Shown: piece after piece, positions 36,230 to 59,325 of the stretch
Layout: each line of letters opens with the position of its first letter
Numbering within the stretch: position 1 is the first letter of the stretch
Source: Phenylobacterium sp.
Lineage (GTDB): Bacteria; Pseudomonadota; Alphaproteobacteria; Caulobacterales; Caulobacteraceae
Direction of reading: 5' to 3'
NCBI GenBank assembly: GCA_004799545.1
Contig: SSMU01000030.1
Coordinates: 62,001 to 126,000, forward strand
DNA: 64,000 bases
The notes under the pieces: model-generated
Told to the model about the DNA's origin: nothing
What the model saw: the letters and a program-made list of their open reading frames with translations, nothing else
Databases searched by the model: none
Made by a program: the position numbers and the translations under genes

Positions 36230-37006
36230 GTGACGCCTTTGGTCATACCGGTCGGACCCGCCATGGAACTGGAGTGCTACCCCACCACCGATCGGCCGCC
36301 GGAGATGGTGGCCGGCCGCCCGAACCGGGCGTGGATGGACCATTTCGCCGAGCGGCACCCCTACCGCTGCCTGCCCTTGACCATGGCCAACACCTCCGGC
36401 TGGGAGCTGCTCTGCCCGACCTCGTTCACCGCGGAGTGGACCGGCGGGACCCACCAGCAGGACATCAAGCTCACCCCGGACCATCCGCATCCGGACTTCC
36501 ACAAGCACGCCCAGAGCCATTTCAGCCACGGGGTGCTGACCTTCCACTCGGGCTACCTGTTCCGCACCCCGCCCGGCTGGTCGATGTGGGTGATGGGCCC
36601 GCCCAACCACGTCAAGGACGGCATCCAGCCGCTGTCGGGCGTGGTGGAGACCGACTGGCTGCCCTTCCCCTTCACCATGAACTGGGTGTTCACCCGGCCG
36701 GGCAAGGTGCGCTTCGAGAAGGGCGAGCCGTTCTGCTTCGTCACCCTCCTGGAGGACAAGACCCTGCACGAGATCCAACCGGTGATCCGGCGGATGGACA
36801 AGAACCCGGAGCTTCGCCACCAGTACGACGTCTGGGAGAAGCACCGCTCGGAGTTCAACCAGCGGATCTTCCGCCAGGATCCGGAGGCCACCAAACAGGC
36901 CTGGCAGCGCTACTATTTCAAGGGCGAGTTCCCCGAAGAGGTGGCCCCGGCCCGCCAGGACCACGTCAACAAGCGCCGCCTCAAGACGCCGAAATTTGGC
37001 GGGTGA
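36230..37006 (+). CDS. DUF6065 family protein
   Basis: A 258-residue soluble protein from GTG 36230. ATG 36263 (MELECYPTTDRPPEM) would give 247 residues and may be the real start, since relatives begin near that point. Aromatic-rich segments recur: CLPLTMANTSGWELLCPTSFTAEWTGG and FRTPPGWSMWVMGPPNH. A Cupin-like beta-rich middle ends with a helical tail. This is the DUF6065 pattern, a family of unknown function that often lies among genes for secondary metabolism or oxygenase-like proteins. Here it stands alone between prdX and tRNA-Gly. I cannot assign an activity. Confidence 0.8.
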   Translation: MTPLVIPVGPAMELECYPTTDRPPEMVAGRPNRAWMDHFAERHPYRCLPLTMANTSGWELLCPTSFTAEWTGGTHQQDIKLTPDHPHPDFHKHAQSHFSHGVLTFHSGYLFRTPPGWSMWVMGPPNHVKDGIQPLSGVVETDWLPFPFTMNWVFTRPGKVRFEKGEPFCFVTLLEDKTLHEIQPVIRRMDKNPELRHQYDVWEKHRSEFNQRIFRQDPEATKQAWQRYYFKGEFPEEVAPARQDHVNKRRLKTPKFGG

Positions 37007-37119: not shown

Positions 37120-37194
37120 GCGGGCGTAGCTCAGTGGTAGAGCACAACCTTGCCAAGGTTGGGGTCGAGAGTTCGAATCTCTTCGCCCGCTCCA
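37120..37194 (+). tRNA. tRNA-Gly (GCC anticodon)
   Basis: The 7-bp acceptor stem GCGGGCG/CGCCCGC, D arm with AGCTCAGTGGTAGAGC, anticodon stem CAACC/GGTTG around TTGCCAA (anticodon GCC), T arm GAGAGTTCGAATCTC, discriminator T, and CCA encoded in the DNA all fit. It reads GGC and GGU codons, which dominate in this GC-rich genome. It lies alone with its own promoter and terminator. Confidence 0.97.
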
Positions 37195-37221
37195 AATTCA
37201 CTCTGCGAGATCAGAGACTTG

Positions 37222-37247
37222 ACGCCGGCCGAAAGGGCCGGCGTTTT
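37222..37247 (+). terminator. Intrinsic terminator of tRNA-Gly
   Basis: ACGCCGGCC-gaaag-GGCCGGCGT forms a perfect 9-bp GC-rich stem and is followed by TTTT minus its paired T. It lies 28 bases after the tRNA. Confidence 0.9.
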
Positions 37248-37282
37248 GCTGTGCGCTCCGCGGGAGAAAGGACGAGACGCCG

Positions 37283-38008
37283 TTGGAACCGGCCCCGGCG
37301 CTTCAGCCGCACCTCGTTCACACGCGCCATGGCGATCTGTCGTTCAAGGCGGCGCTCGCCGGGGATGCCGGCCGGCCGGTGCTGCTGGTGATCCGCGGAC
37401 TGTTCTCGCGCGCCGACCACATGGAGGAGTTGGCGGCGCCACTCTCGGCCGAGGCCGACATTGTCTTCGCACACCTGCCGGGCATGCATTCGCCGACCCT
37501 GCCGGGCAGTGACCTCACAACCATCACGAAGGCCTTTCGCGAGATGATGGCGGAGCGGTTCGCCGATCGCCGGGTGGTCCCGACGGGCGTCTCGGCCGGA
37601 TGCCTGGTCGCGCTCGGCCTCGCTTCTCTGCCGCAGGTGGACGCCATGGTGCTGGTCGAGCCGTTCCTGGACGTCAGCCAGTGCTGGCCGCTTCGGGAAT
37701 TCGCAGCGGCCAAGGCGGCGCCGGGCTCGACGCTGCTGCCCTGGCTGAAGGCCTTCTTCGGGCCGAACGTGGCGGACGATTTCTCACCGCTCGCGAACCA
37801 GGCGCCGGCGCGCACGGCGGTGCTCGTGGGCGCTGTCCCGCTCGAGCCGCCCCGCGCCATGACGCGCTTCCCGAGCCTGACGAGCGAGGCGGAGCGGGCG
37901 ATGTGGCGGGCGCGCGGCGCGAAGGTGACGGTCTGCCCGGACGCCGGCCACGATGTCCCGGCGCGCGCGCCGCAGGCGCTTCTCGCAGCCCTTCGCGAGG
38001 CGCTCTAG
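37283..38008 (+). CDS. Alpha/beta-hydrolase, paralogue of the fusion protein's head
   Basis: A 241-residue alpha/beta-hydrolase-fold protein from TTG 37283. The nucleophile elbow VVPTGVSAGCLVALG (G-x-S-x-G) is near residue 100, and the likely catalytic His in VCPDAGHDVPARAP near 220. The HG-type oxyanion region of esterases is replaced by VIRGLFSRADHM. It aligns in order with residues 1-255 of the fusion protein encoded on the opposite strand: GVSAGC/GVSIGA, VEPFLDVSQCWPL/AEPVLTTEGLWPV, PLEPPRAMTRFPSL/PLNPPRPLDVFPSL and AGHDV/AGHPV. The two are therefore paralogues. It converges on the methyltransferase with only 8 bases between stops. An acyl or peptide ester substrate is possible; none can be named. 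Confidence 0.8.
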   Translation: MEPAPALQPHLVHTRHGDLSFKAALAGDAGRPVLLVIRGLFSRADHMEELAAPLSAEADIVFAHLPGMHSPTLPGSDLTTITKAFREMMAERFADRRVVPTGVSAGCLVALGLASLPQVDAMVLVEPFLDVSQCWPLREFAAAKAAPGSTLLPWLKAFFGPNVADDFSPLANQAPARTAVLVGAVPLEPPRAMTRFPSLTSEAERAMWRARGAKVTVCPDAGHDVPARAPQALLAALREAL

Positions 38009-38016
38009 ACCCGGCG

Positions 38017-38703
38017 TCAGATCGGCTTCAGCCGCCCCTCGAGGAATTTCTGGAGCGCCAGCAGGTTCCGCTGATCCTCGGTCAGCGACTGCGGCCTGCG
38101 CCGGTCCGGCTCGCCGTGCACATAGCCGTTGGTGAAGGCCTGGATGCGGTCGAGAATCCGATTCGGATAGGCGCCGAGCTGGTCCGAGCCCTTCAGGAAC
38201 ACCGCGACGAAGTCGTTGAGATAGCCGCCCTCCTGCTCGCCGGTGTAGGATTCCAGCAGGGTGACCTCCTGGCCATTTCGGACCGCCCAGCGGGCGAGCG
38301 CCGGACCGGAGTCCGGATAGAAGCGCCAGCAGTCGACGGGATAGCCGTGCACCGGGCCGTTCGAAGGCGCGTTCAGGTAGATGAGCCCGCCGGGTCGGGT
38401 GATCCGCACGGCCTCAAGGAACGTCAGCCAGAAGAACTCCGAGTGTTCGAAGCAGGAACTCGTGACGACGGCGTCGATCTCGTCGTCGCCGAACGGGAAG
38501 CGGTAGGGGTCCTCCAGCACCACGTCGACGCCGCGGGCGTTCGCGAAGTCCACGCCGATGTAGCGGACCTTGTCGCCGAACACGGGTCGGATCGAGCCGT
38601 TCACGTCCTGCGAGCCGATCTCCACGATTGTGGCGGCGCCGGCGTCCGCCAGATAGACCTCGGCGAAGAGCCGGGCGTTTTCGACCGCCGTCCTGTGCAC
38701 CAT
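38017..38703 (-). CDS. Class I SAM-dependent methyltransferase
   Basis: A 228-residue methyltransferase from ATG 38703. Motif I is ATIVEIGSQDVNGSIRPVFG near residue 25. DYVGVDFANARGVDVVLEDPYRFPF-type segments (here YIGVDFANARGVDVVLEDP) carry the adenosine-binding Asp. VVTSSCFEHSEFFWLTFLEAVRITRPGGLIYLNAPSNG corresponds to motifs IV-VI of the Methyltransf_11 group. GPVHGYPVDCWRFYPDSGPAL resembles methyltransferases found in polysaccharide loci, where WRFYPD is often seen. It follows the fusion gene by 2 bases, so the two proteins are made together. A sugar methyltransferase is the likeliest role, by context only. Confidence 0.82.
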   Translation of the reverse strand: MVHRTAVENARLFAEVYLADAGAATIVEIGSQDVNGSIRPVFGDKVRYIGVDFANARGVDVVLEDPYRFPFGDDEIDAVVTSSCFEHSEFFWLTFLEAVRITRPGGLIYLNAPSNGPVHGYPVDCWRFYPDSGPALARWAVRNGQEVTLLESYTGEQEGGYLNDFVAVFLKGSDQLGAYPNRILDRIQAFTNGYVHGEPDRRRPQSLTEDQRNLLALQKFLEGRLKPI

Positions 38704-38705
38704 GC

Positions 38706-41672
38706 CTACCCCCTCCCGTCCGCAAGCCAGTCGTCGAAGCCACGCAGGAACTCCGCGGCGGGTTGCGGCGCGTTGACGTCCCAGTAGCGGTCGAAGCTCT
38801 CCGGCGTGAACGCCAATTCGCCGTAGCGCGCGAGAATCTCGTCGTAGTGGTCCGCGAGGACGGTCGAGGCCGGGTCGAGGCGGGTGATCGCGATGCTGCC
38901 GGTGGGTGTCACGGCCACCGGCGCGATCCTGAGGTCGGGCCGGTATTCGCGAAGCACCGAGAGCACCTTCCAGACGTCGCCCGTCCACCAGCCGGCGAGC
39001 TGGCGGTCCTGGCGGAGCTCCGGGCGGTGGTCGCGCTCGGTCATCTCCAGATTCACCGGCAGGCAGTCGTCCAGCATCACGACGGAGGTCCGCGCGCAGA
39101 CCTGTTCGGTGTGGATGAAGTCGCGCAGCAGATATTCGAAGAGGTGGAGTCCATCGAGGAAGGCCACGTCCACCGGCCCGCCAAGGATGGCGCGCGGGTC
39201 CTGGTCGCGGAAGAAGTCGTCGCTGGTCGTGCGGTAGAGGTGCAGGGCCGGCTTCTCGCCGACCGGGTCGCGGTCGAAGACGAAGTCGGGATCGACGCCT
39301 ATGGCCGCGCAACCGACACCGGCGATCGTGGAGCCATTGTGCACGCCGACTTCCAGGTAGCGCTCGGCGCCCTTCAGCTTGAGGACGTCCCACACGAGCT
39401 GGCGATAGGAGGGACCCTTCAGGCTTCTGCGAGATGGCCCCCGGTCGGCGGGCCCCGGTGGCGCGGCGCGGGCGCGGGCGGGCCGCGCCTCGCCGGGTTC
39501 GCTCCGCAGGTCCGGCGCGCGCGCCAGCAGCGCTTCGGTGAGCTCCGCGCGGCGGTCCCAGAGGCTGCGGTACCAGGCCAGCCGCGCGGGAATCTGGTCG
39601 ACGAACATGCGCTGCGTGCGCACATCGTCCCAGGCGGCCTTGGCCATCCGCCGCTGCCCGTCCGGATCCCGGAGCGCATGCCCGAGCTGCACGGCCCAGT
39701 CGGAAAGCTCCGCCGCAATCAGGCCGTTCTCGCCATGCCGGATGACATGCTGGTAGCAGGGGGATGAGGCGATGGTGAGCACGCCGGCCCGCGAGGCGTC
39801 GAGGAACTTGGCGTCGCTCTTGGTCTCGATCAGCGGCTTCGCCCCGATGGGGGTGAACGAGACGGCGCAGCGGCTCATCTCGGCGAGGTAGCCCTCGTAG
39901 CTGAGGAAGGGCCGGAAGACCTTGCGGTCGGTCGGCAGCGCCGCGAAAACCCCCTCGTCGCCCAGCACCACGAACTCCGCGTCCGGGAACTCCTCGATCA
40001 CCGGCCCGAGCGAGCGCGCCACCTGCAGCGCGAAATCGCCGCGTCGGACGGCGCCGTAAAACACCCGCGGCGGCCGCGGCCCCTCCGGGAAGGGGAGGAG
40101 TTCGAACACCGCGTTCGGGAAGACCGCCACCTCCGGGTTCTCCCGCCGGAAGGCCTCGGCGAGGCTTTCGGTCGAGGTCTGCACGGCGTGGACGGAGCGG
40201 AAGCGGGTCAGGGACGCCTCGCCGAACCGCCCGTGGAATTCGGCGATCAGCTGCGGATGGTCGTCGAGTTCGATCACCACGATCCATCCCGCGGCGAGCA
40301 GACTCTTGAGGAGCCGCCGCCCGCCCTCGTCCTGCAGGTCGCCGGCGCGTTCGAGCACCAGCACCCTCGGTTCGTCGGGGTCCGCGTCAGGGACCGCGAA
40401 GGCGCCGGTCTGGTGGCGGACCTCCAGCCCCGGGAGCGTGCGGAGCATCTCCACGGGCAGCCGGCCGCGGATGTCCATCAGCCGGGGCGCGAGAGAGATG
40501 TCGTAGAGCTTCAGCCTCGGGGTCTCCGCGGCGGCCCGACGCTGAAGCCGCACGATTCCCGGCGAGACAAGCTCCGCCGGCGCAAATCCGGCCGTGGCGA
40601 GCAAGGCGGAGTCGAGCGCGCCGGGATCGGCGCAGCGCATGACGGCCACGCCGCCCGGGCTAAGGCGATCGCCCAGGGCCGCCAGGGCCGCAGTCGTGGG
40701 CGCGACGGCGAAGACCGCCGCATCCGCCGGCGCGCCCTTCTCCGCCGCCGTCCAGGGCTCGACGCGCGCCTTCGGGTTGCGCGCCGCGACCGCGAGCCGG
40801 AAGGTCCCGGCCTCCTCACCCTCGTAGAGGAGATTGAGGGCGGTAGCCGGCGTCGCCTCGAACAACGCCTCGTCGAGCTTCGCCACATCGTAGGCCCGCG
40901 CCGCGGCCGCCCGGCGGCAGGCCTCCACGACTACGTCGGTGACCAGCAGGGGCGCCTGGCCCTGCACCGGGTGGCCGGCGCCCGGCGCGATATGCACCCG
41001 CACCCGTGGGCTGGCGGCGAGCTGAGCCCGATCGGCGTCGTCCAGCAGGCTTGGGAATACGTCGAGCGGCCGCGGCGGGTTGAGCGGGATGCTCCCGAGG
41101 ATCACGTCCACCGGCACGCGCAGACCCTCGATCAGGTGTCCGTAGCTGCGGGGCACGTCACCGCCGTCCGTCACGCCCAACAGGCCCGCCATTCGCTTTC
41201 GCCGCGGGTCGGAGGCGGGGAGCGGCGCAAGGCCCTCGCGAATGCGCCCCAGCACGGGCCACAGCCCCTCGGTCGTCAGCACAGGCTCGGCGGCGACGAC
41301 CCGCCTGATCGCCGGCGAGCGCATCGCCAGGCAGACCGTCGCGCCGATCGAGACGCCAAACATCACCACGGCGCGCTCCGGGAAGCGCGCGGCGACCGCC
41401 TCGTCGAGCGCCGCCGCCACCGCCTCGACCGACCAGTCGCCGACCATCTCGATCTCGTGCAGGCGCACGACGCAACCGTCGGCGGCGTAGCCCAGCGCGT
41501 CCCCCAGCTCGGCAAGGTCGCGTGGCCCCGCGAAAAGCCCGGTGACGCCAATGACCAGCGGCCGCCCCGTGTCGCCGGCGTCGGCGAGGTCATGCAGGGT
41601 CAGCGCCCCGAGGGTCGTGCTCACCTGAAGTGGCCGAAGGCCGTCACCGCTCAATTTCCGCACCCGTCCCAT
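38706..41672 (-). CDS. 988-residue fusion: alpha/beta-hydrolase + glycosyltransferase + SAM methyltransferase
   Basis: Four parts can be seen. Residues 1-255 form an alpha/beta-hydrolase with elbow FGVSIGATV (105-113) and GAGHP (231-235). Residues 265-378 look like a worn methyltransferase-type Rossmann domain (LSPGGVAVMRCADPGALDSAL) with no intact SAM loop. Residues 385-705 are a GT-B glycosyltransferase of the group 1 type, with FPNAVFELLP, VVLGDEGVF, ETKSDAKFLDASRAGVLTIAS and HGENGLIAAELSDWA. A Pro/Arg/Ala linker (720-750) leads to a class I methyltransferase (755-935) with EVGVHNGSTIAG and VDVAFLDGLHLFEYLLRDF. No signal peptide or membrane helix is seen, so it is cytosolic. It is co-transcribed with the methyltransferase downstream. 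Sugar addition followed by methylation on one chain is the natural reading; the substrate is unknown. Confidence 0.82.
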   Translation of the reverse strand: MGRVRKLSGDGLRPLQVSTTLGALTLHDLADAGDTGRPLVIGVTGLFAGPRDLAELGDALGYAADGCVVRLHEIEMVGDWSVEAVAAALDEAVAARFPERAVVMFGVSIGATVCLAMRSPAIRRVVAAEPVLTTEGLWPVLGRIREGLAPLPASDPRRKRMAGLLGVTDGGDVPRSYGHLIEGLRVPVDVILGSIPLNPPRPLDVFPSLLDDADRAQLAASPRVRVHIAPGAGHPVQGQAPLLVTDVVVEACRRAAAARAYDVAKLDEALFEATPATALNLLYEGEEAGTFRLAVAARNPKARVEPWTAAEKGAPADAAVFAVAPTTAALAALGDRLSPGGVAVMRCADPGALDSALLATAGFAPAELVSPGIVRLQRRAAAETPRLKLYDISLAPRLMDIRGRLPVEMLRTLPGLEVRHQTGAFAVPDADPDEPRVLVLERAGDLQDEGGRRLLKSLLAAGWIVVIELDDHPQLIAEFHGRFGEASLTRFRSVHAVQTSTESLAEAFRRENPEVAVFPNAVFELLPFPEGPRPPRVFYGAVRRGDFALQVARSLGPVIEEFPDAEFVVLGDEGVFAALPTDRKVFRPFLSYEGYLAEMSRCAVSFTPIGAKPLIETKSDAKFLDASRAGVLTIASSPCYQHVIRHGENGLIAAELSDWAVQLGHALRDPDGQRRMAKAAWDDVRTQRMFVDQIPARLAWYRSLWDRRAELTEALLARAPDLRSEPGEARPARARAAPPGPADRGPSRRSLKGPSYRQLVWDVLKLKGAERYLEVGVHNGSTIAGVGCAAIGVDPDFVFDRDPVGEKPALHLYRTTSDDFFRDQDPRAILGGPVDVAFLDGLHLFEYLLRDFIHTEQVCARTSVVMLDDCLPVNLEMTERDHRPELRQDRQLAGWWTGDVWKVLSVLREYRPDLRIAPVAVTPTGSIAITRLDPASTVLADHYDEILARYGELAFTPESFDRYWDVNAPQPAAEFLRGFDDWLADGRG

Positions 41673-41763
41673 GGCCGCATGCGCCTAGATCGCTTGCCCG
41701 CCGGGTGCAGGCAAGGGCGCTGAGCTCCGGCCGCCGCCGCCGGAGGGCGCGCCTCTGGACGCC

Positions 41764-41809
41764 GTGAGCTCCGAGCGCCGCTTGCAAACGCGAGGCGCTC
41801 GGAGTTCAC
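41764..41809 (-). terminator. Strong hairpin after the TylF-like gene
   Basis: GTGAGCTCCGAGCGCC and GGCGCTCGGAGTTCAC pair over 16 bp with one G-U type mismatch around a 14-base loop. It begins inside the stop codon of the methyltransferase gene. No T tract follows on either strand, so it may be an RNA-stabilising or Rho-related 3' end rather than an intrinsic terminator. Confidence 0.5.
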
Positions 41810-42549
41810 CAGATCGCCAGGCCCTGGCTGGTCGGCAGCTCGAGGACGGGCACGCCGCGCCGCGCGAACCAGGCCCGCTCCTGCAGGTGTTGCTGGCGGT
41901 AGGGGATGGCCCCGAAGTCGTCGAGCACGATCACCGCCCCGGGAGCCAGGCGGGCCTCGATGGCGTCGAGGGCGCCGATCTCGGCGGCCGCATTGTTCAT
42001 GTCGATGTGGGCGAAGGCGATCTGCTCCGGCAGGCCTTGCGAGAAGCTCTCCGGCACCGCCCCGCGGAACACCCGGACGCGCGGGAAGGCCGCGAACCGC
42101 TGCACGACGGCGTCGAACAGGCCGGGGCCATGCTCCTGCATCGCATGGTGCGGCATCGCTGGGTCGTGGTCGAACAGGTCGTAGAGGAAGACGTCGCGGC
42201 CCTCGACGTTGACGCTGTCGAGCACGATCCGCGCGGTCGTGCCCTTGTAGCAGCCGCATTCGATGTAGGCCCCGGGCCGGCGCAGGGCCTGGCGCGCCGC
42301 CCAGACCACCGTCGCGGTCCGCCAGAGCAGGCCGCGCTCCACCCCGCCCGTCGCATGGGCCTGCCAGGCGGTCATCAGCGCCTTGTCGTCGAGGAAGCCC
42401 AGGTTCCGTCCGAAGGCGATCAGATTGTCGGCGGCGTACCAGCCGCGCTTCTCGCGGGCGGCGTCCACCAGGCCGTCGATGCCGGCGCTGAACCGGGCGG
42501 CGTCGTCCACCCCCCAGAAGAAGTCACTCCGGAAAAACGGATTCTCCAC
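41806..42549 (-). CDS. TylF/MycF-like SAM-dependent O-methyltransferase
   Basis: A metal-dependent O-methyltransferase of the macrocin/TylF type, which methylates sugar hydroxyls. I prefer GTG 42549, with GGGAG 6 bases upstream, giving 247 residues; the ATG at 42681 would overlap DUF2252 coding by 55 bases and add low-complexity sequence. Motif I is AYIECGCYKGTTARIVLDSV. Metal-site acids are in FAHIDMNNAAAEIGALDAIEARLAPGAVIVLDDFGAI, as in TylF (IDxDxYE-like and LDDF). The N-terminal half, with WVENPFFRSDFFWGVDD and GFLDDKALMTAW, is helical. It is in the same orientation as the fusion gene, separated by the hairpin, so it may be a separate unit. A sugar substrate is likely. Confidence 0.82.
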   Translation of the reverse strand: MENPFFRSDFFWGVDDAARFSAGIDGLVDAAREKRGWYAADNLIAFGRNLGFLDDKALMTAWQAHATGGVERGLLWRTATVVWAARQALRRPGAYIECGCYKGTTARIVLDSVNVEGRDVFLYDLFDHDPAMPHHAMQEHGPGLFDAVVQRFAAFPRVRVFRGAVPESFSQGLPEQIAFAHIDMNNAAAEIGALDAIEARLAPGAVIVLDDFGAIPYRQQHLQERAWFARRGVPVLELPTSQGLAIW

Positions 42550-42625
42550 CCACCGCTCCCATGTCGCGCCGACGCGAGGGTCACTAGCCCGCCGGGGGCG
42601 GGTGCGGTCAATCTTCCCGCTGGCG

Positions 42626-43816
42626 CTAGGCGGCCTGCGCCAGGGCGAACACCCGGCAATGTTCGAGATAGGCGCGCTCATGGATGCTGAGCAGGTCGAC
42701 CACGCTCGACCACAGCCAGCTCGGCGCGTCGAGCTGGGCGGTCCGCGCCCGGGAAAGCGCGGCCTGCCAGGCCGCCCGCTGCTCGGCGCTCATCTGCCGG
42801 CCGTGGGCCTTGCCGACCACGCCGGCCAGATAGGCGGCCAGCGCCATGGCCCGGCCGGGCGTCAGCTGTTCGATCTCCAGCTTGAGGTCCTGGGGCATCA
42901 GCTCGCGCAGCACCACGGGCTTGTAGAGCAGCCGGGCCGCCAGCATCCGCATGCCGAGGTTCGGCGACAGCGCCCGGGCGCCCGCCACCACCCGCTGGGC
43001 GTTGTCGCGGGGCATGGCGACCCCGGCGGCGCGCGGAGCCGCGGCGGTGACGGCTTCCTTGAGGTCGACCAGGCAGAAGGACGAGGTCTTGCCCTCGCCG
43101 ATCCGCAGCATGGCCGCGAAGCGCAGCCGGCCGAGCGAGCTGCAGCCCTTCATCCAGTAGGCGGCGTCGACCAGCGAGATCGGGTCCTGGTCGTCGCGGG
43201 ACTGCAGGGTGGTGAGCAGGGCGCGGACGCTGTCTTCCGCGAACAGCTCGCCCAGGGCGGCGCGCTCCTGGTCGGTGAGCGCCCAGAACCGCTTGCCCAG
43301 CGGGATCACCGGCTTGACCGTGTCCAGCCGTTCCTGCGCCAGGTGGCGCCAGCGGCGGCGCGCCGAGCGGTCGAGCAGGCCGCGGATGCTGGCTGGCCTG
43401 AGCTCCTTCTCGCCGGCGCTGTCGAAGTCGCCGGCCATGGCGGTCTCGTAGCCGGCCATCAGGTGCTCGAGGATGTGGGCGGTGGTCACGCCGGGCAGGT
43501 CCGAACCGCGCGCCGCCGAGGCCAGGGAGAGGCCGAGCCGGATCAGGTCGTGGGCCGGGTTGCCGATCACCGTCTGGTCGAGATCGCGGATCTGCACCGC
43601 CACCCGCCCCTTGCTGTCGGCCAGCGGCCCCAGGTTGCCCAGATGGCAGTCGCCGCAGATCCACACCGGCGGGCCCTCGGGCAGTTGGTGCGGTGTCGCC
43701 TCCAGCCATTCGTAGAACTTGACCGTGCTGCCCCTGACGTAGGCGTGCGCCGAGCGCGCCATCTTCAGGTTACGGGTCTCGCGAAGCCGGTCGGCGCGTT
43801 CTTCGGGGCTGGTCAT
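42626..43816 (-). CDS. DUF2252 family protein
   Basis: A 396-residue cytosolic protein of the DUF2252 family, distantly similar to protein-kinase-like/aminoglycoside phosphotransferase folds. Family segments are FYEWLEATP near residue 33, PVWICGDCHLGNLGPLAD (the HGDxHxxN-like loop) near 50, AVQIRDLDQTVIGNPAHDLIRLGLSLA near 73, and MKGCSSLGRLRFAAML near 220. The HxxN and DxD elements suggest possible phosphotransfer, but no member I know has a firm activity. It is divergent from the TPR-ATP-grasp gene with 117 bases shared, so both may be controlled together. It lies 76 bases upstream of the TylF-like gene. Confidence 0.88.
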   Translation of the reverse strand: MTSPEERADRLRETRNLKMARSAHAYVRGSTVKFYEWLEATPHQLPEGPPVWICGDCHLGNLGPLADSKGRVAVQIRDLDQTVIGNPAHDLIRLGLSLASAARGSDLPGVTTAHILEHLMAGYETAMAGDFDSAGEKELRPASIRGLLDRSARRRWRHLAQERLDTVKPVIPLGKRFWALTDQERAALGELFAEDSVRALLTTLQSRDDQDPISLVDAAYWMKGCSSLGRLRFAAMLRIGEGKTSSFCLVDLKEAVTAAAPRAAGVAMPRDNAQRVVAGARALSPNLGMRMLAARLLYKPVVLRELMPQDLKLEIEQLTPGRAMALAAYLAGVVGKAHGRQMSAEQRAAWQAALSRARTAQLDAPSWLWSSVVDLLSIHERAYLEHCRVFALAQAA

Positions 43817-43933
43817 CGCTCGGCCAACGCGGGGGGAAGCTTGGCCGTTCCGAAATAGCGGCGATCCGCGAAGCCATGGCCAAGATTGCGCCGCCGCAAT
43901 CGGCCCGCCCCAAACGCAGGGGCGACTGGGCCG

Positions 43934-45535
43934 ATGAGGCCTGAGCCGTCAGCGTCCGAGGATCCCGCGCCCGCCCTGCGCCGGGCGATGGCCGACCACG
44001 CCCGGGGCCGGCTCGCAGAGGCCGAGGCGGCCTATCGCGGGATCCTGGCGCGGGACCCGGACGAGGTCCGGGCGCTGGGCCTGCTGGCGCTGATCCTCGC
44101 CGACGGCCCGGACGAGGCCGAGGCGGAGCGGATCCTGGCCCGCCATCTCGCGCTTAGGCCCGACGACGATGCGAGCCTCCTGGCGCTGGGCCGGCTCAGC
44201 GCCCGGCGGGGCGACGACGTGGCGGCCGTGGCCCTGTTCCGCCGGGCGGCGACGGCCCGGCCCGGCCTGGCGCCGATCCACAACGAGCTGGGCGTGTCGC
44301 TGCACCGGCTGGGCGATCACGCCCAGGCCCTGGCGGCCTTCGACCGGGCGCTGGCGATCGATCCCGCCTACGCCGTGGCGCACGGCAATCGCGGCCTGGT
44401 CCTGCAGGCGCGAGGCCGCCCGCGGCTCGCCGCCCGGGCGCTGCGCCGCGCCCTGCGGTCCGGGGCCGAGGACGCCGGCCTGTGGGAAGCCCTGGCCAGC
44501 GTGCTCGACCAGGATCGCCGCGCCCAGGCCGCCCGGGTGGTGCGCGACGACCTCGCCCGGCGCACGGGCGTCCAGCGCAGCGGGCGGACCGACGCCGCCG
44601 CGCCGCGGGTGCTGGTGTTGGGCGCGGTCGGAGCCGGCCACGTGCCGACCCGCTACCTGGTGGACCCCGACGCCTTCGCCATCGCCGCGCTCACCCTGCT
44701 TTCGCCGCAGGCGCGGGACGCGTCGCTCGGCCGCGTGGCCCTGGACGAGCTGCGCGACACCGACGTGGTGTTCTCCACCCTCGGCGACGTGGACCGCGAC
44801 GGCGGCCAGCTGTCCGCCGCGACCGCCTTTTGCCTGGCGCTGGACAAGCCGGTGCTGAATCCGCCGGCCGCCATCCGCCACACCGGCCGCGATGCGGCGG
44901 CCGCGCTGTTCGCGGGCATCCCCGGCCTGGTGACCCCGCCGGCCCGCCGCGCCAGCCCGGCGGAGCTGGCCGCGACGCCGATCGAGACGCCCCTGCTGGT
45001 GCGGCCGGCCGGCGACCATGGCGGGCAGAACCTGGTGCGGCTGCAAGACGCCGCCGAGCGCGACGCCTATCTGGCGACCCGGCCGGACGAGCGGCTGCTG
45101 CTGACCCCGTTCCACGACGTGCGCTCGGCCGACGGGCGCTGGCGAAAGTACCGCTTCGTCTTCGTCGACCGCCGGCCGTTTCCCTTCCACCTGGCGATCG
45201 CCGATCACTGGCTGGTGCACTACTGGCGGGCCGACATGGCGGGCTCCGCCGAAGCCCGGGCGGAGGAGGCGCGGTTCCTCGCCGACTGGCGCGGCGTCTT
45301 CGGGCCGCGCGCCGCGGCGGCCGTGGAGGCCGTGGCCCGGCGCCTCGACCTCGACTACGGCGGCCTCGACTGCGCGCTGACCGAGGCGGGCGAGGTGCTG
45401 CTGTTCGAGGCCAACGCCTGCATCCTGCTGCACCTCGACGATCCGGCCGACGTCTTCCCCTATAAGCACCGCGCCGTGCCGCCGATCCGCGAAGCCTTCA
45501 CCCGCCTCGTGCTGGACCGGGCCCGCGGCCGCTGA
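43934..45535 (+). CDS. TPR protein with C-terminal ATP-grasp-like domain
   Basis: A 533-residue cytosolic protein from ATG 43934; TTG 43886 is a longer choice. About four TPR units span residues 10-200, for example APIHNELGVSLHRLGDHAQALAAFDRALAIDPAYA. A Rossmann-like pre-ATP-grasp domain (about 215-330) begins PRVLVLGAVGAGHVPTRYLVD. The ATP-grasp part follows: LLVRPAGDHGGQNLVRLQD near 370, RKYRFVFVDRRPFPFHLAIADHWLVHYWRADM near 430, and the Mg2+ site YGGLDCALTEAGEVLLFEANACILLHLDD near 490, with D and EAN in their usual order. ATP-grasp enzymes join a carboxylate to an amine or thiol through an acyl phosphate. The substrate is unknown; TPRs suggest that it is a protein. Confidence 0.82.
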   Translation: MRPEPSASEDPAPALRRAMADHARGRLAEAEAAYRGILARDPDEVRALGLLALILADGPDEAEAERILARHLALRPDDDASLLALGRLSARRGDDVAAVALFRRAATARPGLAPIHNELGVSLHRLGDHAQALAAFDRALAIDPAYAVAHGNRGLVLQARGRPRLAARALRRALRSGAEDAGLWEALASVLDQDRRAQAARVVRDDLARRTGVQRSGRTDAAAPRVLVLGAVGAGHVPTRYLVDPDAFAIAALTLLSPQARDASLGRVALDELRDTDVVFSTLGDVDRDGGQLSAATAFCLALDKPVLNPPAAIRHTGRDAAAALFAGIPGLVTPPARRASPAELAATPIETPLLVRPAGDHGGQNLVRLQDAAERDAYLATRPDERLLLTPFHDVRSADGRWRKYRFVFVDRRPFPFHLAIADHWLVHYWRADMAGSAEARAEEARFLADWRGVFGPRAAAAVEAVARRLDLDYGGLDCALTEAGEVLLFEANACILLHLDDPADVFPYKHRAVPPIREAFTRLVLDRARGR

Positions 45536-45578
45536 TCCGCTTTCCGTCAAGCTGATGTAGGCTCGCGCCCGACGCCGC

Positions 45579-46286
45579 ATGACAGGGGGAACGCCGTTGG
45601 TCACGCCGATCGCCGAAGTCGCCTTCAACCTGGTCACCGCCTGGGGCATGGGCAGCGTGGTCGGCTGGGAGCGCACCTACAACGGCCGGCTGGCGGGCCT
45701 GCGCACCCACGGGCTGGTGGCCCTCGCCGCCGCGGCGGTGATGACCTTGGCCTATGCGCCGGCGCTGTCGCCCGGGATATTCGGCAAGGTGATTCAGCTG
45801 GAGGCCGCCCCTCTGGCGCAAGGTGTGATGACCGGCCTCGGCTTCCTTGGCGCAGGCGTGATCTTCAAGGAGGGCGTCAGCGTCCAGGGCCTGACCACCG
45901 CGGCGGCGCTGTGGACCTCCGCGGCGCTCGGCCTGCTTTGCGGCCTGGGCCTGCAGCTGCCGGCCGCGCTGGCGACCGTTATTGCGTTCTTCACCCTCAC
46001 CGTCCTGCGCTGGGTCGAGGCCTGGGCGCCGGCCCGGGTCCTGGGGATCGCGGTCTTCCGCTTCACCGCCAAGGCCGCGCCCGACGAGGCCGGGCTGCGG
46101 CGCCTGCTCGGCGATCATGCGGTGTCGCTGCAGGACGTCAGCTACGGCCGGATCCGCGACGGCAAGCTGGTCGAATACCGGGGCAGCATCGAATCCCGCA
46201 GCCACAAGGCCTTCGAGGCCCTGGCCGAACGGCTCAGGACCCTGTCGGAACTGGTCGAGTTCGACCTCAGCCGGATCAGCAAGTGA
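45579..46286 (+). CDS. MgtC/SapB family membrane protein
   Basis: A 235-residue inner-membrane protein. The N-terminal MgtC domain has about five helices (residues 10-150) with GMGSVVGWERTYNGRLAGLRTHGLVALAAAAVM and the conserved GVMTGLGFLGAGVIFKEGVSVQGLTTAAALWTSAALGLLCG. The C-terminal ~85 residues form a cytosolic ACT-like domain (RFTAKAAPDEAGLRRLL ... SRSHKAFEALAERLRTL). Members include the Salmonella virulence factor MgtC, which acts on the F-ATPase and Mg2+ stress; most homologues are of unknown role. It ends 1 base before the convergent ParB-fold gene. Confidence 0.9.
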   Translation: MTGGTPLVTPIAEVAFNLVTAWGMGSVVGWERTYNGRLAGLRTHGLVALAAAAVMTLAYAPALSPGIFGKVIQLEAAPLAQGVMTGLGFLGAGVIFKEGVSVQGLTTAAALWTSAALGLLCGLGLQLPAALATVIAFFTLTVLRWVEAWAPARVLGIAVFRFTAKAAPDEAGLRRLLGDHAVSLQDVSYGRIRDGKLVEYRGSIESRSHKAFEALAERLRTLSELVEFDLSRISK

Positions 46287-46287
46287 G

Positions 46288-46908
46288 CTAGCCGGTCGCG
46301 CTGGGGCCGCACCAGCCGGGCAGGTGCTGCGCTTCGGGCCTCTTGGAGAGGCTCAGGGCGCGGGCGAGCGCCGCGGCGAAGTCGTCATCGACCGCCTTGC
46401 GCTTGATCCGGCGCCGCAGGAAATCGGCCCAGATGAACTCGCTGAACGGGGTGGTCTCCTTGGAGAAGCCGCCCGCCCGCCGCAGCTCCCCCGCCAGGCT
46501 GCGGAACGGGTCGTCGGCCAGGTCCGCCACCGCCTTGGGGATGGCGTCGAAGTCGCGCCGCTTGCCCTCGGCGTCATAGGGGTGGCACCAGCCGCGGTTG
46601 TCGCAGAAGCTCCAGAACTCGGCCTTGGCCAGGTGGCTGAGGTCGGCCAGCACATTGACCGCGACCTCGGCCACGCCCTCGTCGTGCAGGGCGCGGGCCA
46701 GGTGGTGGTGGTCGAGGACGTAGGGCCGGCCCTTCAGCCCACGGATCACCGGGATCATGTGCCGGCCGAGGAAGGCCGGCCCGTCGCGCTCGGCCCGCTC
46801 ACGCCATTCGCGCCGCTTCTCGGCCACTTCGCGCAGGCCCACGGTGATCTGGGTCGGCCGCAGGTCGGCGACCGGGACGGGCTCGAGGATCGGCTCGCGG
46901 GAGGTCAT
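46288..46908 (-). CDS. ParB/Srx-fold nuclease-like protein (ParBc_2)
   Basis: A 206-residue protein with an N-terminal ParB-like domain: PVADLRPTQITVGLREVAEKRREW, then IPVIRGLKGRPYVLDHHHLARALHDEGV, the standard ParB/Srx pattern with DHHHLARAL replacing the GERR/GxHR motif of segregation ParBs. There is no helix-turn-helix centromere-binding domain, so this is not the chromosome partition ParB that would use the parS sites. WSFCDNRGWCHPYDAEGKRRDFDAIP is typical of the ParBc_2 family. It is likely an NTP- or nucleic-acid-binding protein of unknown role. Confidence 0.85.
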   Translation of the reverse strand: MTSREPILEPVPVADLRPTQITVGLREVAEKRREWRERAERDGPAFLGRHMIPVIRGLKGRPYVLDHHHLARALHDEGVAEVAVNVLADLSHLAKAEFWSFCDNRGWCHPYDAEGKRRDFDAIPKAVADLADDPFRSLAGELRRAGGFSKETTPFSEFIWADFLRRRIKRKAVDDDFAAALARALSLSKRPEAQHLPGWCGPSATG

Positions 46909-47011
46909 GGCGCCAAGGTGGCCGCCAGCGGCCTCGCGTCAAGCCTGCGGAGCCTATGGACGCGCGCCCCGACGCTTGCCAGTCTCCGGCCCGAAACGCG
47001 AGGGGGCTCAG

Positions 47012-57623: not shown

Positions 57624-57629
57624 CCGGCC

Positions 57630-57706
57630 ATCCTGCGTGACTGGCGAATGAGGTGGGCGACCACCGGGGAGCGCGGGACCATACGACCGCCGCTCGCCTG
57701 GGCATT
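57630..57706 (+). ncRNA. ZTP (pfl) riboswitch upstream of purH
   Basis: The conserved core of the pfl RNA can be read: CGTGACTGGCGAA, then GGTGGGCGACCACCGGGGAGCG, a variable linker, and the 3' half CCGCTCGCCTGGGC. The GGGAGCG/CGCTC pairing and the trailing CGCCUGGGC that closes the pseudoknot are as in known ZTP riboswitches, which sense the AICAR nucleotides ZMP and ZTP. In related bacteria such RNAs control purH and folate genes. The 27 bases from here to the start leave room for translational control; GAGGAG is 7 bases before GTG 57733. Confidence 0.92.
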
Positions 57707-57732
57707 TCCTTCGAACCTCCGAGGAGAATGCC

Positions 57733-59325
57733 GTGCCCGCCGCCCCTGATTTCCCCGCCGCCCCCGACCGCGCGCCCGTCAAACGCGCGCTGATCTCCGT
57801 CTCCGACAAGACCGGGCTGATCGAGGCCGCCCGCGCGCTCGCCGCCATGGGCGTCGAGCTGGTCTCCACCGGCGGCACCCGCAAGGCGATCGCCGAGGCG
57901 GGCCTGGCGGTGAAGGACATCGCCGACCTCACCGGCTTCCCGGAGATGATGGACGGCCGGGTGAAGACCCTGCACCCCATGGTCCACGGCGGCCTGCTGG
58001 GCGTCCGCGACGCGCCGGCCCACAAGCAGGCGATGGACGCGCACGGGATCGGCGGGATCGACCTGGTCTACGTCAACCTCTACCCCTTCGAGCAGACGGT
58101 GGCCGGCGGCGCCGACTATGCGACGGCGGTGGAGAACATCGACATCGGCGGCCCGGCGATGATCCGCTCGGCGGCCAAGAACCACGGCTATGTCGCGGTC
58201 TGCACCGAGATCGCCGACCTCCAGGAGGTGCTGGCCGAGCTGACCGCCTCGGGGACCACCGGCCTCGACCTGCGCAAGCGGCTCGCGGCCCGCGCCTATG
58301 CGCGCACGGCGGCCTATGACGCGGCGATCTCCACCTGGTTCGCCGCCGCGCTCGGCGAGGACTGGCCGCGGCGCAAGGCCTTCGCCGGCCAGCTCGCGCA
58401 GACCATGCGCTACGGCGAGAACCCCCACCAGGCAGCCGCCTTCTACCGCTTCGAGAACCCACGGGTCGGCGTCGCCACGGCGACCCAGTTGCAGGGCAAG
58501 GAGCTTAGCTACAACAACATCAACGACACCGACGCCGCCTTCGAGCTGATCGCCGAGTTCGATCCGGCCGCGGCGCCGGCCTGCGCGATCATCAAGCACG
58601 CCAACCCCTGCGGCGTGGCGACCGGCGGCTCGATGCTCGAGGCCTACGAGCGGGCGCTGGCCTGCGACCCGGTGAGCGCGTTCGGCGGCATCATCGCCCT
58701 CAACCAGGCGTTGGACGTGGCCACCGCCACAAAGATCCTCGACCTGCTCACCGAGGTGGTGATCGCCCCGGCCATCGACGCCGAGGCCGCAGCCCTGTTC
58801 CGCAAGAAGAAGAACGTCCGCCTGTTGGTCACCGGCGGCCTGCCCGACCCGCTGGCGCCGGGCCTGACCTTCAAGTCGGTGTCCGGCGGCTTCCTGGTTC
58901 AGGGCCGCGACGACGCCCGCCTGACGCCGGCCGACCTCAAGGTGGTGACCAAGCGCGCGCCCACCGAGGCCGAGGTGCGCGACATGCTGTTCGCCTTCAC
59001 CATCGCCAAGCACGTGAAGTCGAACGCCATCGTCTACGCCCGCGACGGCCAGACGCTGGGCGTCGGCGCGGGCCAGATGAACCGCAAGGATTCAGCCCGC
59101 ATCGCCGCCCTCCGCGCCGCCGACTTCGGCCTCGACCTCAAGGGCTCGGCCTGCGCCTCGGAAGCCTTCTTCCCCTTCCCCGACGGCCTGATCCAGGCCG
59201 CCGACGCCGGCTGCACCGCGGTGATCCAGCCCGGCGGCTCGATCGGCGACCAGAAGGTCATCGACGCCGCCGACGAGCGTGGCCTGGCCATGGTGTTCAC
59301 CGGCGTGCGGGTGTTCCGGCACTGA
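57733..59325 (+). CDS. purH: Bifunctional AICAR transformylase / IMP cyclohydrolase
   Basis: PurH catalyses the last two steps of IMP synthesis. It is 530 residues from GTG 57733, with GAGGAG upstream. The N-terminal cyclohydrolase (about 20-200) has [32 protein letters not shown] and [16 protein letters not shown]. The transformylase part has [14 protein letters not shown]-type sequence (here [16 protein letters not shown]), [14 protein letters not shown] and [10 protein letters not shown]-like [10 protein letters not shown] with the catalytic Lys-His pair. It is under the ZTP riboswitch, whose ligand precursor ZMP (AICAR) is this enzyme's own substrate and is also produced by HisF. Confidence 0.97.

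Follow-up and report, generated by a model that had tools for sequence, protein, structure and literature searches.

Results

A single long frame in a tRNA-Gly island

The stretch of Phenylobacterium DNA analyzed here (64,000 nucleotides; the “window”) carries on its minus strand, at 38706..41672, a complete gene that opens with ATG and runs for 988 codons in one frame, with 2,967 bp free of stops. GC content at the third codon position is 0.82-1.00 nearly throughout. Scored in blocks of 25 codons, codon usage favors this frame over the other two everywhere but in the block of residues 726-750, in which all three frames score as non-coding. A simple gene finder also calls a single gene, preferring a GTG start 16 codons downstream. 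The first-pass annotation had proposed one 988-residue chain that joins an alpha/beta-hydrolase, a worn Rossmann domain, a GT-B glycosyltransferase (GT) and a class I methyltransferase; our analysis upholds both the single chain and all four domain assignments. Domain by domain, the protein is roughly 40-66% identical to its nearer relatives, a level that excludes chance likeness. Searches of the Protein Data Bank with the whole chain and with a profile of the methyltransferase returned no match. The genome itself is an incomplete draft of 4.03 Mb in 30 contigs.

The gene resides in a strain-specific insert of 9.8 kb (37200..47001) that starts directly after a plus-strand tRNA-Gly(GCC) gene (37120..37194); in the genome G010, the two edges are only 84 bp apart, representing an empty site. 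Nearly all genomes of the genus share some or all of the neighborhood formed by DUF6065 and this tRNA gene, with differing genes behind it; in G066, a tyrosine integrase occurs at this site and the tRNA end is duplicated over 54 bp. Comparison of the genus genomes thus marks tRNA-Gly(GCC), which borders the island on its left, as an integration hotspot in Phenylobacterium. A search of the window for a repeat of the tRNA 3' end, as a second att site, found none. The island that G024 carries at this tRNA gene includes a GT of the fusion’s family, along with FdtA-like and aminotransferase-like genes, as judged by their similarity to genes of locus L114. The DUF6065 gene that adjoins the tRNA gene (36263-37006) occurs in nearly all Phenylobacterium genomes; contig C16 of the fusion’s genome contains a further, partial match to it at 74% identity.

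The surroundings of the fusion hold few other glycan genes and are not a polysaccharide locus. Directly downstream is a second methyltransferase gene (Methyltransf_11; 38017..38703, minus strand), relatives of which are fused in several genomes to the family of the fusion’s C-terminal methyltransferase. Directly upstream is a TylF-like O-methyltransferase gene (41806..42549, minus strand), which matches the TylF model PF05711; the fused methyltransferase domain does not. A TPR protein encoded nearby (43988-45535) had raised the idea of flagellin glycosylation, which we rejected because the protein contains TPR repeats but matches no glycosyltransferase. Its 515 residues comprise N-terminal TPR repeats and a C-terminal stretch of 320 residues that has no Pfam match and looks ATP-grasp-like by eye. 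A ZMP/ZTP riboswitch aptamer (57627-57710) lies immediately 5' of the gene at 57733-59325.

Anatomy of the chain

Residues 1-262 (40887..41672, minus strand) form the alpha/beta hydrolase domain. Taken singly, this domain has no Pfam match, but 14 of 17 homologs match Abhydrolase_6 (PF12697), and a profile of the family retrieves alpha/beta hydrolases of solved structure (E = 4e-8); polyketide thioesterases are also among the matches of this profile. Ser108 (in GxSxG), Glu129 and His234 are near-invariant in the family alignment and present in the fusion. From its position and conservation, Glu129 is the likely catalytic acid. The family has four more copies in this genome, one of which, a stand-alone Abhydrolase_6 paralog of the fused domain (37283..38008, plus strand), adjoins the fusion.

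The worn Rossmann domain (residues 263-380; 40533..40886, minus strand) is modeled by AlphaFold with a confidence of about 90 and aligns with the intact methyltransferase domains of methyltransferase-GT proteins. At the same place, before the same GT, G150 has an intact class I methyltransferase (Methyltransf_23, E = 2.4e-19) and G037 has another (Methyltransf_12, E = 2.6e-7), whereas that of G140 is partly eroded. Compared with the intact versions, the fusion lacks about 100 residues of the methyltransferase core, and the SAM motif VLELGCG has become LNLLYEG. Neither the glycine-rich SAM motif nor the full-length core of an active class I methyltransferase is found in residues 263-380, which, as read from this alignment, are a dead methyltransferase.

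The GT-B domain (residues 381-722; 39507..40532, minus strand) is CgeB/GT4-like. PF13524 is matched by 16 of 16 members of its family at E<=0.01, several of them above the curated cut-off; the fusion’s own copy scores 20.7 bits, under the cut-off of 25 bits. A first AlphaFold run on the fusion modeled the hydrolase and the GT poorly, and the GT was then refolded alone (pLDDT 78). The resulting model shows the GT4 fold, built of two Rossmann-like halves, and its top Foldseek matches are the GT4 enzymes BshA (E 1.4e-11, TM 0.61), ManT and PimA. A KSDxK block and many further positions are invariant across the family and kept in the fusion.

The C-terminal domain (residues 750-988; 38709..39425, minus strand) is an O-methyltransferase of the Methyltransf_24 family (PF13578). 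Alone it scores 26.8 bits against a cut-off of 26.3, and all 29 family members examined match. AlphaFold models it at a confidence of about 97. The ExGxxxG and DGxH motifs, the DDC acid pair and the WWTGDVWK block are conserved in the alignment and intact in the fusion. Its Foldseek neighbors are Mg-dependent COMT-type O-methyltransferases in general rather than sugar enzymes alone; they include MeT1, a mannoside 1-O-methyltransferase (PMC9883506).

Between the GT and this domain lies a linker rich in Pro, Ala and Arg (residues 723-749; 39426..39506, minus strand). It contains GGGG and GGGGG runs, and there is a TGA in frame +1 at 751. Its composition, its non-coding score in all frames and its short G runs give it the appearance of an old gene spacer, and its last stretch resembles the leader of free-standing methyltransferases. 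From residue 715 to residue 759, all frames are devoid of ATG, GTG and TTG. A separate methyltransferase that kept the conserved N-terminal residues would therefore have no usual start.

Relatives and related fusions

The full four-domain chain was absent outside the window from 101 genomes of the genus, 119 of the family (Caulobacteraceae) and 150 of the order, as well as from viral contigs. A non-exhaustive search of 84,980 species with six short peptide patterns found it in the window only. The arrangement of its first three domains is already established in Phenylobacterium: hydrolase, Rossmann domain and GT share one frame in six of the 101 Phenylobacterium genomes (G015, G082, G121, G068, G063 and G031). 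The first five are 39-46% identical to the fusion in a one-piece alignment over the shared 720-740 residues; the last aligns in two pieces (34% and 47%). Unlike the fusion, all six proteins stop after the GT and lack the C-terminal methyltransferase, and three of them lack the hydrolase serine. The same arrangement occurs in broken frames in two more genomes of the genus, G011 (L083 6676-8857) and G096 (L117 6643-8881), owing to sequencing error or pseudogene formation.

In other Caulobacterales (G150, G140, G037 and G213), a GT of the same family is preceded by a class I methyltransferase, intact or partly eroded, where the fusion has its worn Rossmann domain; these proteins have neither the hydrolase nor the C-terminal methyltransferase. 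Further Phenylobacterium genomes carry Rossmann-GT alone and the methyltransferase as a separate gene, which lies next door on the opposite strand in G025, adjacent and co-directional in G104, and nearby in G112. G104 was considered as a second GT-methyltransferase fusion and rejected, as its GT and methyltransferase occupy neighboring open frames that each end in a stop of their own.

The C-terminal methyltransferase family also shares a chain with GT61 in mycobacteria (L041, L042 and L044) and Acetobacteraceae (L051 and L073), and with GT2 in other Caulobacterales (L187 and L189). These proteins resemble the fusion in joining this methyltransferase family to a glycosyltransferase, but the GT families are unrelated to that of the fusion, the domain orders vary and no hydrolase was found in them. 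Among the individual orders are Methyltransf_11-Methyltransf_24-GT2 (L187), GT2-Methyltransf_24-GT2 (L189) and Methyltransf_24-TylF (L188). The pairing of Methyltransf_24 with a glycosyltransferase is thus a theme that recurs through apparently independent fusions. The first-pass annotation knew of no named family with this order of domains. That statement stands for the full four-part chain; it must be narrowed for the first three parts, which are established in the genus, and for the joining of a Methyltransf_24 protein to a glycosyltransferase, which recurs elsewhere with GT61 and GT2. What is new is the C-terminal methyltransferase join, within a four-part architecture built of known kinds of parts.

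Discussion

We are modestly inclined to regard this fusion as an enzyme for the assembly and O-methylation of a surface polysaccharide, a reading that starts from the observed anatomy, homology and catalytic residues of the chain. If the fused protein is made and active, as we suppose, its GT-B domain would transfer a sugar from a nucleotide donor to the growing polysaccharide. The likeliest target would be an O-antigen-like chain that leaves the cell through a Wzm/Wzt transporter; the sugar, its linkage and its acceptor are all matters of prediction. In the presumed order of reactions, the C-terminal domain would then O-methylate the added sugar, with SAM and, putatively, a bound metal. The Rossmann domain would be a dead methyltransferase retained as a structural spacer. 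For the N-terminal serine hydrolase, a putative role compatible with its fold is the removal or transfer of an acyl group, either on this glycan or on a precursor of it. The hydrolase may be dispensable, given that its serine has been lost from three of the six hydrolase-GT relatives with intact frames and that some hydrolase-GT relatives (L107 and L110) adjoin unrelated genes.

The genes that lie next to relatives of the parts lend direction to this proposal. In G080 (L113), the GT, hydrolase and methyltransferase are direct neighbor genes, beside ABC2-membrane and Wzt-type genes and a group 1 glycosyltransferase (for this type of locus, Pfam was run on the corresponding genes of L114). In G089, genes adjoining the GT and methyltransferase encode FdtA and a DegT aminotransferase; in G121, those adjoining the methyltransferase encode a nucleotidyltransferase, a dehydratase, a C-methyltransferase and an epimerase. 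Judged by their domain content, these ABC-2 permease/ATPase, FdtA, DegT and dTDP-sugar neighbors are the setting of an exported surface polysaccharide. Taken together, the fusion and this neighborhood suggest a division of labor in which the GT would attach the sugar that the methyltransferase O-methylates. It had been proposed earlier that the protein builds and then methylates a sugar on a small molecule or a surface glycan. We favor that proposal, and of its two targets we prefer the surface glycan because the parts have relatives in Wzm/Wzt and dTDP-sugar loci. The Wzm/Wzt locus has an ortholog (67-82% identity) on a different contig of the fusion’s own genome, where the GT is missing. FdtA and a 555-aa gene of the relatives’ loci had no match when searched for in this genome; the glycan must therefore differ from that of the relatives. 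The placement of the fusion in a tRNA-Gly island rather than a polysaccharide locus also weighs against our reading, as does the general COMT-like company in which Foldseek puts its methyltransferase. The gene itself probably arose, on the same modest confidence, by the joining of modules that relatives carry as neighbor genes.

Other accounts must be weighed against the surface-polysaccharide reading. Tailoring of small molecules is another known activity of TylF-type methyltransferases and GT4 enzymes, and the protein could instead modify a small molecule or a protein, such as a specialized metabolite or a glycosylated flagellin. The hydrolase-GT relatives outside polysaccharide loci and the polyketide thioesterases matched by the hydrolase profile would fit this idea. 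We nonetheless consider it unlikely: the window revealed no NRPS, PKS or flagellin gene in the vicinity of the fusion, and each of the three parts has relatives that cluster with Wzm/Wzt and dTDP-sugar genes. It is less probable still that the gene is a decaying or selfish passenger, its parts caught in a hotspot and fused by chance with little or no function. The strain-specific island at a tRNA hotspot would suit such an origin, as would the branches of the fusion in the GT tree (0.71) and the methyltransferase tree (0.53), each the longest among close relatives. Set against these observations are the long stop-free frame with its strong codon bias and the intact catalytic residues of three domains.

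The C-terminal join deserves separate scrutiny, since adjacent GT and methyltransferase genes could have been united by a lost stop or by a sequencing indel in their spacer. Such an artefact or very recent accident is suggested by the non-coding block at residues 726-750, by the G runs and the frame +1 TGA, by the leader-like end of the linker, by the incomplete draft state of the genome, and by the absence of the join from every other genome examined. The lack of any usual start codon near the join argues for a genuine fusion, as do the flanking domains, both intact and coding in one frame, and the fusion of related methyltransferases to other glycosyltransferases. The sequencing error that the first-pass annotation named as a possible refutation is thus improbable, although a small chance of it persists, and we judge artefact and accident together to be quite unlikely.

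Known systems offer partial parallels to the proposed polysaccharide enzyme. In Klebsiella O7, multi-module GT-methyltransferase proteins add a methyl-phosphate cap (PMC11231755), and ORF6 of that system, like the predicted fusion, places glycosyltransferase and methyltransferase activities in one protein of surface-glycan synthesis. ORF6 and the WbdD-type terminators of ABC transporter-dependent O-antigens possess a kinase and a coiled-coil ruler and yield a methyl phosphate product (PMC11231755, PMC3482155). Neither feature is seen in the fusion, in which we found no kinase match and, in the AlphaFold model, no long helix in the linker. The mycobacterial MMP cluster provides a comparable set of activities for a methylated glycan, namely a mannosyltransferase, O-methyltransferases and a hydrolase (MeT1, MmpH, pMeT3 and ManT; PMC9883506). 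Two members of this one pathway, MeT1 and ManT, are fold neighbors of two domains of the fusion; the cluster differs in that its proteins are separate, and their sequence similarity to the fusion is too low for a claim of kinship. A more specific role for the fusion, which we regard as a long shot, would be to add, cap and release: the final sugar of the exported chain would be added and methylated as an end cap, and the hydrolase would free or acylate the product. We know of no description of such a chain-ending enzyme in Wzm/Wzt systems.

The relatives can be arranged in a stepwise series, in which an intact methyltransferase-GT protein would have eroded, then been fused to a hydrolase, and finally gained a new methyltransferase. 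Fusions point to proteins that work together. Viewed in this light, the fusion, the separate versions of its parts and the recurrent GT61 and GT2 fusions would direct a large and mostly unnamed methyltransferase family toward sugar methylation. Further, the fusion would tie an unnamed hydrolase family to the same sugar-methylation job.
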